Positions 138 through 6,376 of a stretch of 64,000 nt of DNA are shown here, piece by piece (position 1 is the first letter of the stretch; the number at the start of each line of letters is the position of its first letter). The notes under the pieces were generated by a model. It saw only the letters and a program-made list of their open reading frames with translations, was not told where the DNA came from and made no database searches. The DNA comes from Sandaracinaceae bacterium. GTDB lineage: Bacteria; Myxococcota_A; Polyangia; Polyangiales; Sandaracinaceae. Both the position numbers and the translations under genes were made by a program. The stretch spans positions 1 to 64,000 of the forward strand of contig JAHBWG010000051.1 in the NCBI GenBank assembly GCA_019637095.1, given 5' to 3'.

Positions 138-609
138 GCGGCGAGGAGGTGGCCGAGGTCGCGGCGTCGACCCACGCCGCGCTCCTCGAGGTGCTCGCGC
201 GCCACGGCCGCTCGCTCGAGGGTGTCCACGAAGAGACCGACTCGCTCGACGAGCAGTCGGCGCTCGCGTCCTGAGATCGCGACCAAGCCGCGCGACATCG
301 CGCGCGTGCTCGCCGACGAACCAGTCGCTGGCGCGCGCGACCCACCCCGACGTCGCGAGAGACCTACGTCCCCGCCTCGGGGTCAGCTCCCGCTCGGGTT
401 CGGCTGAGCGTCCTCGCCGGCCGCGGCGCACCGCTCCGTCCTCGTCGCCTGCTCACGGCCGATCTACGGCCCCACGGGACGCTCTCGGTCGTCGGCGTGC
501 GGAGCGTGTCCCGAGTCCCGCGTCAGCGGCGCGCCGATTCGGCCGCCCTTTGGCACTCGAACGCGACTGGAGCCGTTCGACTCATCGACAGCCTTTGAGC
601 CGCGGTACG
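138..609. other. Gene-free stretch
   Basis: About 470 bp without a frame I would defend. Short open frames exist on both strands, but they are Arg/Ala/Ser-rich translations typical of shadow frames in GC-rich DNA. The promoter of the cassette starting at 610 should lie at the right end of this stretch; I see no clear -35/-10 pair. Confidence 0.4.
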
Positions 610-1101
610 ATGGTCCCGATGAACCGGCGTCGCGAACTGCTCACGAGGCTGGAGGACGGTCCGCCCGACAACGCGCTCCTCGAAGAGCTCGAGACGCTCT
701 TCGAGCAGGACGGTGATCTTGCCAGCGCGACGTGGCTGCGACTGGAGCGCCTCGGCTACGGCCACGAGACGGGCCTTCACAACTTGGGCGACGTGCTCGA
801 TGAGCATGTTCCGCCAGCGATCGTCCAAGCGATCGTGCGATCGCGCGTTCGGCGCGGGAGGCTCCAGATCGGAGACGATGGACCCGTCGTGGAATGGCCG
901 CACTTCTTCGTCGAGCCGTTCGACGAGCTGCGCCGATTGCGGAACGCCATCGCCCACGGCGGACCGATCACCGTAGACTTCCTCGTCGCGGAAGGATCGG
1001 GCGAGCCGCGCTCGCTCGTCTTCCCGAGCGGTGTGTTCATCGACATCGTCGCCCGCGTCACGCTCGAAATCGCGGATGTGCTCCGACGAGGTGATCCGTG
1101 A
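610..1101 (+). CDS. HEPN-like protein, first gene of accessory cassette
   Basis: A 163-aa soluble, largely helical protein. Residues 111-116 read RNAIAH, the R-N-x3-H signature of HEPN domains. Many of these are RNases in toxin-antitoxin and defence systems; others are inactive adaptors. The motif sits in the context PFDELRRLRNAIAHGG, after an acidic helical N-terminal region (residues 20-60). ATG at 610 is preferred over the TTG at 550, and a second in-frame ATG lies at 619; neither has a good Shine-Dalgarno sequence. The stop overlaps the GTG of the next gene by 4 bp, so the two are probably translationally coupled. RNase activity is inferred from the motif only. Confidence 0.65.
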   Translation: MVPMNRRRELLTRLEDGPPDNALLEELETLFEQDGDLASATWLRLERLGYGHETGLHNLGDVLDEHVPPAIVQAIVRSRVRRGRLQIGDDGPVVEWPHFFVEPFDELRRLRNAIAHGGPITVDFLVAEGSGEPRSLVFPSGVFIDIVARVTLEIADVLRRGDP

Positions 1102-1616
1102 CTCGCGCTGCTCTCGACCGGCACGATCTCGTCGAACGCCATCCCGGACTGAGCGACGCCGTCGCCGGGGCCCTCGTCGAGGCCGCCGCGGTCGCGCTCT
1201 CTCGTCACCACGTCGATGGGGCGGCCTCGTTCCGCGTCGACGACGGCGGACGCGGTGAGCAGGTCGAGATCTGCTGGACGGCGCCCGACGATCGCGCCCG
1301 CCGCGCGTGGAATGACGCATCCCGCGCGACGGAGTGGGCCGCCGAGGCCATTGCGATCGTCGCGGTCGAGCTCGCACGGAATTTGGTGGTCGTCGGTCGA
1401 GCCGCGCGCGGCACGCGCAACGACTTCCATCTTGGCCGTGAGGGGGACGGCCTCGAGACGGCGGCGCTCCTCGAAGTGGCGGGTTGCGATGACTGCGGGC
1501 TCCCAGGCCTGCTCGCGAAGAAGCAGGAGCAGGCCGCGCTGAATCCAGACGCGCTGCCGGCCATCGCGGCGGTGGTGCGGTTCGCGAGACCGCATGTCAT
1601 GATCGATGACGCATGA
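1098..1616 (+). CDS. Uncharacterised cassette protein with possible nuclease-like core
   Basis: A 172-aa protein starting with GTG inside the stop of the HEPN-like gene. No named domain is recognised with certainty. The stretch from residue 56 (VEICW) through GTRNDFHLG (105-113) and LLEVAGC (124-130) to a closing hydrophobic strand near 155-169 looks like a family of hypothetical proteins I recall from cyanobacteria, with a D-Y-W-L-G ... A-R-L-E-V-S-G pattern. Asp109 and Glu126 could be remnants of a D...E-x-K nuclease core, but the lysine is absent here, so activity is doubtful. Its stop overlaps the ATG of the third gene by 4 bp. Confidence 0.55.
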   Translation: MTRAALDRHDLVERHPGLSDAVAGALVEAAAVALSRHHVDGAASFRVDDGGRGEQVEICWTAPDDRARRAWNDASRATEWAAEAIAIVAVELARNLVVVGRAARGTRNDFHLGREGDGLETAALLEVAGCDDCGLPGLLAKKQEQAALNPDALPAIAAVVRFARPHVMIDDA

Positions 1617-2056
1617 GAGACGACGCGCATGACGCTGCGATGGCTGCGATGGACCGGGCTGAGGAGCTCGCGCGTGAGCAATTGCTCGAGGCGGCGCGGG
1701 AGACGTACGAGGAGGCGGCGCAGTTCGAGCAGCGCTCTGCGGACGCCGCGCCCGTGGATCGGCCGCGGACGCGGGGAGTGCTACGCGTCAGCGCCGTCTC
1801 GCTCTGGATGCGCGCCCGACGCTACGAGGACGCCGCTCGACTCGCCCGTCGCTACCTGCAGGAACCCCTCGCGGCCGGATATGCGCGCGAGCTTCACGAG
1901 CTGTTGAACGAGATCGAGGCGCGGCGCGCAGCCCTCGGGGCACTCCCGCGCGTGCCCGACCAGCAGGGCGGCGAGCTCCTTCGGCGTTTGAAGGAACGCG
2001 AGACACAGATCGTGAGCGGGATCGTCCCGCTCGTGCGCCTCACGAACGCGGCCTGA
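1613..2056 (+). CDS. Small helical TPR-like protein, third cassette gene
   Basis: A 147-aa helical protein without signal peptide or membrane segment. Residues ~10-100 form two or three helix pairs (AREQLLEAARETYEEAAQFE, then RRYEDAARLARRYLQEPL) of the kind seen in TPR-like folds. A central PRTRGVLRVSAVSLW stretch looks like a conserved family core. Its ATG overlaps the previous stop by 4 bp, closing a compact three-gene cassette. A role as scaffold, partner or immunity protein for the other two products is possible but not shown. No recognisable gene follows before the right repeat copy at 2244. Confidence 0.55.
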   Translation: MRDDAHDAAMAAMDRAEELAREQLLEAARETYEEAAQFEQRSADAAPVDRPRTRGVLRVSAVSLWMRARRYEDAARLARRYLQEPLAAGYARELHELLNEIEARRAALGALPRVPDQQGGELLRRLKERETQIVSGIVPLVRLTNAA

Positions 2057-2243
2057 GCGCCGGTGGTGAGGCGCGCTATCGAGGTCGACGGTGACGAGCT
2101 GCCCCTGTAGTCGAGAAGCTCGAAGCCCTCGGGCGTGCTGAGCATCGAGATGGGCGCGGTGCTGGGGACGAGGTTGCGGGCGCGGTGGCTGTCACTGATC
2201 GCGTCCGGGCCGACGGCGACGCGCGCCGCCGTCCCGAGGCGTC

Positions 2244-2340
2244 GCGTCACGCGCGGGCTCGCCACTCGGGCAGCGCCACTCAGAAGCACTCGAGGAGCGT
2301 CCACGCGAAGCGCGTGCACGGCGCCGAGCCGGGGCTCGTG
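2244..2340. repeat. 97-bp direct repeat, right copy
   Basis: Partner of 41-137. This copy is continuous with the intact lipoprotein gene: positions 2280-2340 are its 3' coding end and 2244-2279 lie downstream of its stop. Confidence 0.9.
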
Positions 2341-3038
2341 ACGTAGATGCAGGTGCCGTCGCAGAACCCGCAGTTCTCGAGCAGCGTGCAGTCGTAGCAG
2401 CTGAACGCGCGGCAGCGATCGTCCGGCGGCGGCGGCGGCGGCGTGGTCGACGGGGTCCGGCACGTGCCGGACTGGCAGGTGCCCTCGCAGCAGTCGACGT
2501 CGCCCGCGCAGACGCCGCCGAGCGGGTTGCACATCGGGACGGGCACCTCGCGACGGCACGTCCCGGCGACGCACACGTTGCCCGCGTCGCACGTCGTCCC
2601 GCAGCACGCCTCGCCCGTCGCGCCGCACACGCCGGGGTCGCCGCACACGCCGGTGACGCACGAGAGCCCCGCGTTGCACGGCGCGCCGCTCGCGCAGCAC
2701 GCCTCGCCGCGCAGGCCGCACGAGCCCACGCCGCCGTCGGTGAGCGCCGCCAGGCACGTGCTGCCGGCGCAGAAGAGGCCCGGCCCGCACGGCGCGCCCA
2801 TCGCGCAGCAGGCCATGTGCTCGCCGCCGCACGAGCTCGCCGCGCACGTCCCGGCGATGCACGCCAGCCCGCCGTTGCAGGTGCCGACGCCGCAGCACGG
2901 GTCCCCCTCCGCGCCGCAGAGCCCGCCGTCGCCGCCGCGCTGCATCGGGCCGCTCGCGTCGGCGCAGCCCGTGATGGCGCCGCCCGCGAGGGCGCAGCTC
3001 GCGGCGAGACCGAACGACAGGGACAGCGCGCGCCTCAC
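2280..3038 (-). CDS. Cys-rich repeat lipoprotein
   Basis: A 252-aa exported lipoprotein. Residues 1-25 are a signal peptide ending in the lipobox ITGC. The rest is built from about five cysteine modules of the form CG-x-x-G-x-x-CC-x-x-G-x-C-x2-GL-x-C-x-x-GTC. A Pro/Asp linker near residue 200 follows, then a PSI-like end (CRAFSCYDCTLLENCGFCDG). Such disulfide-rich lipoproteins are abundant on myxobacterial cell surfaces, but the function of this one is unknown. Its last 60 bp are duplicated at 77-137, so this locus has been a site of recombination. Confidence 0.8.
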   Translation of the reverse strand: MRRALSLSFGLAASCALAGGAITGCADASGPMQRGGDGGLCGAEGDPCCGVGTCNGGLACIAGTCAASSCGGEHMACCAMGAPCGPGLFCAGSTCLAALTDGGVGSCGLRGEACCASGAPCNAGLSCVTGVCGDPGVCGATGEACCGTTCDAGNVCVAGTCRREVPVPMCNPLGGVCAGDVDCCEGTCQSGTCRTPSTTPPPPPPDDRCRAFSCYDCTLLENCGFCDGTCIYVTSPGSAPCTRFAWTLLECF

Positions 3039-3157: not shown

Positions 3158-5524
3158 CTACTCGGCGTTGCGAAGGTGGACCACGCGCTGCGGGAACGGG
3201 ATCTCGATCCCCGCCCGCTCGAGCGCCTCGTGCAGCGCCATCCCGAGCGCGGAGCGCGCCGCCGGGAGCTTCGTCGCGTCCGCGATCCAGATCCGCACCT
3301 CGAAGTCGATCGAGCTGTCGCCGAACGCGGTCAAGAGGACCGAGGGCGCCGGGCTCGCGAGCGCCAGCGGGTGCTCCTGCGCGGCGGCCATCAGCACGGC
3401 GTGCGTCGCCTTCACGTCGCTGCCGTACGCGACGCCGATCGGGAAGTCGACGCGCTGGGTCGCGTCGGTGTGCGTCCAGTTCACGAGCGGGCCTTCGATC
3501 ATCCTCGAGTTCGGGATGATGATGTCGGCGCCGTTCAGCGCGCGCACCGTGCTCGAGCGGATCCCGATCTCGGTGACCGTCCCGCGCACGTTCGAGACCT
3601 CGACGGTGTCGCCGACCTTCACCGGCCGCTCGAACACGAGCAGGAGCCCGGAAACGAAGTTGCTCACGATGTTCTGGAGGCCGAAGCCGACGCCGACGCC
3701 GAGCGCGCCCGCGAACAGCGCGAGCTGCGACAGGCCGATGCCCGCCGCGCTCGCCGCGAGCACGAACCCGAGCGCGAGCACGGTGTACCGAACGATCAGC
3801 GCGGCCGCCGCGGGCACGCCGGGGCCCATCTCGAGGCGCGGCGCGACGTCCTCCTGGAGCGTGCGCGCGAGGATGCGCGAGACGATCACCGCCGCCCAGA
3901 TGCCGCCGACGAACGCGAGCACCTCGCCGACGGAGATCTCGATGTCGCCCAGGCGCACGTTCTCGGCGAGGAGCTGCTCGAGCTGGGCGCGGAACGCGAC
4001 CCGCAGGCGGAAGTAGTCGAGCGCGATCCAGAGCCAGCCGAGCCCGAAGAGGAGCTGCGTCGCGCGCCGGAACGCGAGGCGCGTCACGTCCGCGTGGCGC
4101 CCGAGCACGGTGCTCTGCCAGAGCGGCGTCGAGAGCGCGGCGTCGACCCAGCCCAGGGCCGAGAGCTTGAGCGCCAAGAGCGCCATCGCGATGAACGCGG
4201 CGGCGATCGCGCCCTCGACGAGGATGCCCGCGAGGGGCACGTAGCCGGCGACGCACGCGCCGACGCCGACCGCGGCCGCCGCGCTCGCGCAGCCCCAGGC
4301 CGCGCGGACGGGGCCATCGGCCGCGCGCGCGCACGCGCCGAGCCCGCCGGTCGCGAGGATGGCGGTCGCGAGCAAGGCCACGCGGTGCTCGGCGTCGTGC
4401 TCGTCGAAGAGCAGGCGCAGCCAGTCGAGCGCGTAGAGGACGGCGGTGAGCCGCGTCGCGCGCCGGTGGCCGCGCTCGAGCGGCAGCAAGAGGAGGGGCG
4501 CGATGGCGAGGAGCTGCGCGAGCTCGACGACGGCGCGCGGCGCGAGCGGGTGGAGCGCGCGCACGAGGAACAACCCGACGAACAGCGTCGTCGCGACCGG
4601 GTGCGAGAGCGACGCGGTCGCGGCGTGCTCCGCGCCGAGCCGGTGCTCCCGCCGCAGCCAGTAGAGGAACGCGAGCAGCAGGAACGCGACGACGCCGTGG
4701 ACGTAGCCGCGCCCGCCCAGGTGCGTGACGAAGCGATCGAGGCCGTGGACGTGGTGCGTCAGCGCGTGCGCGAGCTGGGTGAGGAGCGGCGTCGCGGCGC
4801 GGTCGGTGGCGCCGCCGAGGCCCACGGGGTGCGTGCGCGACAGCACCCGGGCCTGGCTCTCCTCGATCGCGCGGTCGAGCTGCGCGAGCACGTCGCCGGT
4901 GACGAGCCCGTGCGCGGCGAGCCGCGTCTGCGCGCCGAGCACCTGCTCGAGGTGCTCGCGCAGATCGAGCGCCACCGCGGCGACGAGCTCGACGACCTCG
5001 CCGATCCGCGTGCGCGCCGCGTCGGGGTAGTCGGCCTCCGCGGCGGCGGCTGCCGTCGCGGCCCAGCGCCTGCGGATCGCCTCGACGCGCTCGGCCTCCG
5101 TGCCGAGCATCGTCGCGGTCTCCTCGAACGCCTCGGCGACCTCCGTCACCCGCGCGTCGAGCGTCGTCCACATCTCTTGCAGGTTGCGGAGCTCGCGCAC
5201 CGGCTGGGCCTCGAGCGCGTCGAGGTCGCTGTCCTCCCGGAGCCGCGCGACCTCGCGGCCGATGCTCTCGATCTCGATCAGCCGGTGCTCGAGGTCGCGC
5301 ACGTGGTGGATGCGCGCGCGGACCTGGTGCAGGGTGGCGCTCGCCTGCTGCGCGGCCGCCGCGACCTCCGCCGGGCGCACGATCCCCGCGGTCGCGGCCT
5401 CCGCGCCGGCGGTCGCCTCGGCCGGCGTGAGCGCGCCGACGCCGTCCTGCGCCGCCGCCGGCCCGCACGCGCCGAGCGCGAAGAGCGCGAGGAGCGCGAC
5501 GAAGAGACCGCTGGAGGGACGCAC
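3158..5524 (-). CDS. MscS-family mechanosensitive channel, large form
   Basis: A 788-aa inner-membrane channel that should open under membrane tension and release solutes. The N-terminus is a signal peptide (a possible LGAC lipobox, then AAAQ). A helical, coiled-coil-like periplasmic region (to ~250) and a series of membrane helices follow. The MscS core at the C-terminus has the pore helix AGALGVGVGFGLQNIVSNFVSG, the beta domain with FERPVKVGDTVEV, and NGADIIIPNS. Length and layout match the MscK/DUF3772-type large channels, not the ~290-aa E. coli MscS. The GTG at 5524 is chosen because it opens directly into the signal peptide; longer frames upstream cross the divergent gene. Confidence 0.85.
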   Translation of the reverse strand: MRPSSGLFVALLALFALGACGPAAAQDGVGALTPAEATAGAEAATAGIVRPAEVAAAAQQASATLHQVRARIHHVRDLEHRLIEIESIGREVARLREDSDLDALEAQPVRELRNLQEMWTTLDARVTEVAEAFEETATMLGTEAERVEAIRRRWAATAAAAAEADYPDAARTRIGEVVELVAAVALDLREHLEQVLGAQTRLAAHGLVTGDVLAQLDRAIEESQARVLSRTHPVGLGGATDRAATPLLTQLAHALTHHVHGLDRFVTHLGGRGYVHGVVAFLLLAFLYWLRREHRLGAEHAATASLSHPVATTLFVGLFLVRALHPLAPRAVVELAQLLAIAPLLLLPLERGHRRATRLTAVLYALDWLRLLFDEHDAEHRVALLATAILATGGLGACARAADGPVRAAWGCASAAAAVGVGACVAGYVPLAGILVEGAIAAAFIAMALLALKLSALGWVDAALSTPLWQSTVLGRHADVTRLAFRRATQLLFGLGWLWIALDYFRLRVAFRAQLEQLLAENVRLGDIEISVGEVLAFVGGIWAAVIVSRILARTLQEDVAPRLEMGPGVPAAAALIVRYTVLALGFVLAASAAGIGLSQLALFAGALGVGVGFGLQNIVSNFVSGLLLVFERPVKVGDTVEVSNVRGTVTEIGIRSSTVRALNGADIIIPNSRMIEGPLVNWTHTDATQRVDFPIGVAYGSDVKATHAVLMAAAQEHPLALASPAPSVLLTAFGDSSIDFEVRIWIADATKLPAARSALGMALHEALERAGIEIPFPQRVVHLRNAE

Positions 5525-5620
5525 CGAGGCATGGTGGGCCGAACGCGCCCGCGCGAGCAACGGCCAAACGCGCCGCACGCGGGCCTTCCCGTCGCGCGCG
5601 GCCGCGGTAGGATGCGCCGC

Positions 5621-6376
5621 ATGTTCGCCATGAACGACAAGGTCGCCATCGTCACCGGCGCGAGCCGCGGCATCGGCGCGGAGATCGCGCGCCGCTTCGC
5701 CGCCGCGGGCGCCAAGGTGGTGCTCGCCTCGCGCAACCTCCCGCCGCTCGCGGCGCTGAGCGCCGAGATCGAGGCGGCCGGCGGCGAGGCGCTGCCCTAC
5801 GCCTGCCACACCGGCAAGGAGGACCAGATCCAGGCGCTCGTCGCGGCGAGCGTCGAGCGCTTCGGCAAGGTCGACGTGCTCGTGAACAACGCCGCCACGA
5901 ACCCCTACTTCGGCCCGATGATGAACATCGAGGACGGCGCGTGGGACAAGACCTTCGAGGTCAACCTCAAGGGCTACTTCGCGATGACGCGCGCGGTCGT
6001 CCGCCACGTCCAGGCGCGCAAGGGCACGGGCTCCATCGTGAACGTCGCCTCGGTCGCCGGCTTCATGGCGATGCCGCTCCAGGGCGTCTACGCGATGACG
6101 AAGGCGGGCGTGATCTCGATGACGCGCACGCTGAGCGTCGAACTCGGCCCGGACATCCGCGTCAACGCGATCGCGCCGGGGCTCATCGACACGAAGTTCG
6201 CGTCGGCGCTCACGCAGAGCCCCGAGATCCTCGACGTGGTGATGCAGAAGACGAGCCTCAAGCGCGTCGGCCGCCCCGAGGACGTCGCAGGGGCGGCGCT
6301 CTTGCTCGCGAGCGACGCGGGCGCCTACTTCACCGGCGCCGTGCTCACGGTCGACGGCGGCTGGAGCCTCGGGTGA
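5621..6376 (+). CDS. SDR-family oxidoreductase (FabG-like)
   Basis: A 251-aa short-chain dehydrogenase/reductase. The N-terminal nucleotide-binding motif TGASRGIG, the NNAAT motif and a catalytic Ser with YAMTK (Tyr and Lys) are all present, as is the closing GAVLTVDGGWSLG typical of classical SDRs. The enzyme should reduce or oxidise a carbonyl/alcohol with NAD(P)(H); the substrate cannot be read from sequence. ATG 5621 is chosen over 5612 and 5630 because AGGA at 5608-5611 then lies 9 bases upstream. It is divergent from the MscS gene with 96 bp between starts. Confidence 0.9.
   Translation: MFAMNDKVAIVTGASRGIGAEIARRFAAAGAKVVLASRNLPPLAALSAEIEAAGGEALPYACHTGKEDQIQALVAASVERFGKVDVLVNNAATNPYFGPMMNIEDGAWDKTFEVNLKGYFAMTRAVVRHVQARKGTGSIVNVASVAGFMAMPLQGVYAMTKAGVISMTRTLSVELGPDIRVNAIAPGLIDTKFASALTQSPEILDVVMQKTSLKRVGRPEDVAGAALLLASDAGAYFTGAVLTVDGGWSLG

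Follow-up and report, generated by a model that had tools for sequence, protein, structure and literature searches.

An AbiTii-like protein encoded together with a predicted PD-(D/E)XK nuclease and a TPR-like protein in a candidate mobile defence operon of Myxococcota

AbiTii has long been known as a phage-resistance gene, and how it acts is still poorly understood. Its product, an abortive-infection protein of Lactococcus (PF18864), has a helical N-terminus with the motif W..xELxGY, including an invariant Glu, followed by an alpha+beta part. AbiTii domains are N-terminal partners of HEPN nucleases, and in the c2405 and Ymh families such a domain is coupled to the nuclease effector by fusion (PMC3710099). 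The cassette described here, from a Sandaracinaceae bacterium, likewise couples an AbiTii-like protein (g1) to a nuclease-type protein (g2), which differs from these fusions in being predicted to have another nuclease fold, in being encoded by a separate gene, and in having a TPR-like third protein (g3) beside it. Neither a description of this three-gene combination in the literature nor a phage assay of any member was found. We read g1-g2-g3 as an undescribed mobile defence-type operon with a predicted nuclease effector, and give a defence function a probability of about 0.55.

The window, i.e., the whole stretch of 64,000 nucleotides that was analyzed, starts at base 1 of its contig (C145) in a genome of 9.25 Mb and 197 contigs. 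All three genes are on the forward strand. They comprise g1 (610–1101; 163 aa; start ATG at 610 or 619), nested in a TTG-started ORF at 550–1101, g2 (1098–1616; 172 aa; GTG start), and g3 (1613–2056; 147 aa; ATG start). As stated in the original prediction, made from the same DNA, the genes overlap by 4 bp each, with the overlap letters GTGA and ATGA, and the motifs quoted there are present: RNAIAH at R111–H116 of g1, GTRNDFHLG...LLEVAGC in g2, and PRTRGVLRVSAVSLW in g3. The cassette has a G+C content of 69%, compared with 74% in the rest of the window. The three genes are more than chance ORFs, since each has homologues in other genera and families, arranged in the same order. Searches of the window proteins against Pfam, NCBIfam, PHROGs, PADLOC, and PDB sequences returned nothing significant, and the lack of a significant PADLOC match for g1, g2, or g3 agrees with the earlier statement that no named system of this composition is known.

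In the case of g1, sequence comparisons indicate that the protein is quite probably a distant relative of AbiTii. The g1 profile matched a profile of eight AbiTii proteins at 77% (p 2e-5, 133 columns; hhalign), compared with 0.2% at most in control profile comparisons, and the alignment includes the alpha+beta part that follows the AbiTii N-terminus. An initial group of relatives with the same gene order and a class-wide profile search together yielded 10 g1 homologues from nine other genomes; Pfam AbiTii was matched by three of ten g1 members scanned (best E 0.0034). Conserved features of g1 are W..LE..GY, R79/G83, and HFFVE. E46 is invariant and corresponds to the Glu of the ELxGY motif of AbiTii, and Y78 is kept in most homologues, the window copy being an exception. 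No Pfam AbiTii (PF18864) match above the gathering score was found for the window g1 itself, which is therefore named AbiTii-like and not filed as AbiTii; a search of the window's own genome was empty. The protein of 163 aa differs from AbiTii also in its own HFFVE motif and in its place upstream of a predicted PD-(D/E)XK nuclease, without fusion to a HEPN domain. The AlphaFold2 model, made from the window protein and seven relatives (pLDDT 89.3), is alpha+beta with four strands in the order a-a-a-...-b-b-a-b-b-a; comparison with the PDB and with viral models (Foldseek, VIA-align) found no solved relative of this fold. Search of viral contigs found no g1 homologues.

The second protein had been called nuclease-like, which its predicted structure bears out. 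The g2 model (AlphaFold2; pLDDT 94.5, pTM 0.91) has a helix at 74–94, strands at 96–101, 110–114, and 121–130, a helix at 135–147, and a strand at 155–161. This order matches the alpha-beta-beta-beta-alpha-beta core of PD-(D/E)XK enzymes and thus predicts a nuclease fold. The top structural matches (Foldseek, VIA) were lambda-exonuclease-like 3syy, the SPARDA effector, Hjc (1gef), and tRNA splicing endonucleases. Foldseek E-values were weak (best 4e-3) and VIA Z-scores moderate (up to 6.8), so that, with Z below 7, the fold call rests on the many agreeing matches together with the residues. Among 28 relatives, D109 is conserved in 28/28, E126 and K142 in 26/26 each, and E79 in 25/27, and the window g2 has all four, corresponding to the E/D/E/K residues of the PD-(D/E)XK nucleases named above. 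K142 lies on the helix after the third strand, and S, G, or A stands at the usual place of the lysine; lysine on this helix is a known migrated position in the superfamily. Besides this lysine, g2 is set apart from these nucleases by a near-constant g3 partner and by its lack of a library family: no named family was found for it in Pfam, NCBIfam, PHROGs, or PADLOC. Model and residues taken together, g2 very probably has a nuclease fold of the PD-(D/E)XK type, in a clade named in none of the searched libraries, and it is g2, not g1, that is the likely effector of the cassette.

Of the 28 loci with g2, 24 have g3 directly downstream, in many cases overlapping g2 by 4 bp as in the window. TPR matches (Pfam) are weak and fall in long relatives of g3, with a best E of 0.037 in a relative and none in the window copy. 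In loci without g1, long forms of g3 with about 250 extra residues occur, as in L049, L061, L064, L065, L114, L117, L119, and others. The window g3 may be described as a small TPR-like helper of g2, a putative adaptor or brake.

Seven loci, all in Polyangia, keep the complete order g1-g2-g3: the window, L037, L041, L042, L043, L045, and L046, of which L037 and L041 belong to one genome. In L039 and L040, g2 has apparent frameshifts that interrupt the order, and L038 is without g2. The original prediction had named co-occurrence in unrelated genomes near defence genes as support for a system, and the genes do co-occur elsewhere. Among 318 genomes of the class, g1 (strong scores) is present in 10, g2 in 19, and both in 8 (p 1.3e-9 by a hypergeometric test, which ignores shared ancestry). 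Both g1 and the g2-g3 pair are also found without the other. For example, L044 has a g1 homologue alone (5161–5919), without g2 or g3, beside unrelated genes. The g2-g3 pair spans three phyla, Myxococcota, Cyanobacteria, and Bacteroidota. An Anabaena plasmid encodes it with the 4-bp overlap, in keeping with the earlier remark that g2 resembles an uncharacterized cyanobacterial family; the pair is also on Leptolyngbya and Hymenobacter plasmids and on three viral contigs.

Where g1 is missing, g2-g3 may have other partners. A KaiC-like ATPase gene follows the pair in L047, L048, L118, and L120 (assigned by Pfam for the first two and by sequence resemblance for the last two), and a ParA-like ATPase gene, assigned from its KGGVGR motif, follows it in L116. 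On a Mu-like phage contig (L065:4989–7600), the genes are GemA, an HTH gene, g2, a long g3, true AbiTii (E 1e-41), and phage lysozyme, and this island has 45% G+C as against 63–68% in its flanks. The phage locus pairs g2-g3 with AbiTii independently of the operon, and is for this reason the strongest support for g1 as AbiTii-like. Conserved operon and phage locus together connect proteins of the AbiTii type with a single, defined family of predicted nucleases, and from this connection follows a testable mechanism, that of AbiTii as a nuclease controller. On another viral contig (L061:4251–6628), an AbiV gene is directly before g2 and a long g3. On the Hymenobacter plasmid (L062:4525–5430), g3 behind g2 is fused to a bacterial sugar transferase, and a P-loop NTPase fold gene is on the other strand; the fusion fits defence poorly. 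A wider proposal, which we hold tentatively and consider somewhat doubtful, is a modular immune system with a constant nuclease-TPR core (g2-g3), to which different sensors or regulators can be fitted: the AbiTii-like g1, true AbiTii, a KaiC-like ATPase, a ParA-like ATPase, or g3's own extension of 250 aa. Such a system would be distributed across Myxococcota, Cyanobacteria, and Bacteroidota as well as on plasmids and in phages.

Several loci have defence-type neighbours. L049 lies between genes for type III restriction, YhcG nuclease, methylase, and UvrD helicase, L046 is near an ABC-3C system, and L040 is near BrxC/D. Read case by case, these neighbours (RM, BREX, ABC-3C, AbiV) are suggestive of defence. 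We infer nuclease activity, its regulation, and an anti-phage effect for the cassette, and the following mechanism is proposed. Three translationally coupled proteins would be made, among them the putative effector nuclease g2 with its E...D...E...K site, alongside which g3 would work as adaptor or brake. g1 may sense the invader or control g2, a role also proposed for AbiTii domains that are fused to HEPN nucleases. The complex would be silent in a healthy cell; upon infection the control by g1 and g3 would be relieved, and g2 would then cut nucleic acid, either that of the phage or that of the cell itself (abortive infection).

The small overlapping genes, the carriage on plasmids and phages, the nuclease-like effector, and, in two genomes (L039, L040), copies that look decayed are features that a toxin-antitoxin module on a mobile element would also display, with g2 (or g1) as a toxin neutralized by g3 and the module kept by addiction, not for phage defence. 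This explanation is unlikely: three or more components are unusual for a plain addiction module, as are swapped ATPase or AbiTii partners and g3 forms of 370–390 aa, and g1 and g2-g3 each occur apart. Non-defence processing or repair of nucleic acids, with g2 acting as a resolvase- or exonuclease-like enzyme guided by g3 and partner ATPases, would account for Hjc and lambda-exonuclease-like enzymes among the closest solved folds of g2 and for the KaiC-like and ParA-like partners. It is an improbable role for a gene found in 19/318 genomes of the class, since sparse distribution, plasmid and phage carriage, and varied partners indicate an accessory rather than a housekeeping function.

That g1 is a HEPN RNase toxin with accessory proteins, as first proposed from RNAIAH, is most improbable and was rejected, since the RNxxxH motif is unique to the window copy (0/10 homologues have it), the fold is alpha+beta, and the relatives point to AbiTii. 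In none of the 10 homologues does the corresponding stretch have Rx4-6H. In the g1 model, R111–H116 runs from the end of a helix into a loop and belongs to no four-helix bundle, which is an outcome that the original prediction had itself named as refuting, and no HEPN structure was found among the structural matches of g1 (Foldseek, VIA-align). The window g1 has a weak Pfam match to HEPN_RiboL-PSP (E 0.058 over 20 residues), and is the only copy to touch HEPN among the ten g1 members scanned.

Returning to the mobile defence-type operon, the DNA around the cassette has traces of mobility. A direct repeat bracketing the three genes, from which mobility had been argued, is real, with two copies of 121 nt that are 91% identical (35–155 and 2238–2358, both on the forward strand). 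The right copy is at the 3′ end of a gene on the reverse strand (2280–3038), which encodes a Cys-rich, repeat-containing putative lipoprotein, and the left copy duplicates this gene end. The repeat was thus rejected as a transposon end and is rather the scar of a duplication or recombination; for mobility, the remnants of IS91 are better evidence. On the left, 138–548 (forward strand) is a decayed remainder of an IS91-family (Y2) transposase gene, from its 3′ part; it has DNA copies on other contigs, and segments of 1–548 are multicopy in the genome. Within this remainder, the protein sequence of 273–401 is 88% identical to the end of a Y2_Tnp ORF, and 138–273, another repeat, is presumed to belong to the transposase. 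On the right is a 5′-end remnant of an IS91-family transposase gene (2206–2239, forward strand; 11 codons), whose DNA is 97% identical to that at the start of an ORF for an IS91 Zn domain on contig C101. No intact Y2 transposase flanks the cassette, the pieces all being decayed. IS91-type elements can carry adjacent DNA, and the location of the cassette between a 3′ and a 5′ transposase remnant fits capture by such an element. On contig C101 of the same genome (L074:5715–7919), the IS91 zinc-domain ORF continues into a NERD-UvrD helicase, a further case of a cargo gene that follows the 5′ end of an IS91 transposase gene.
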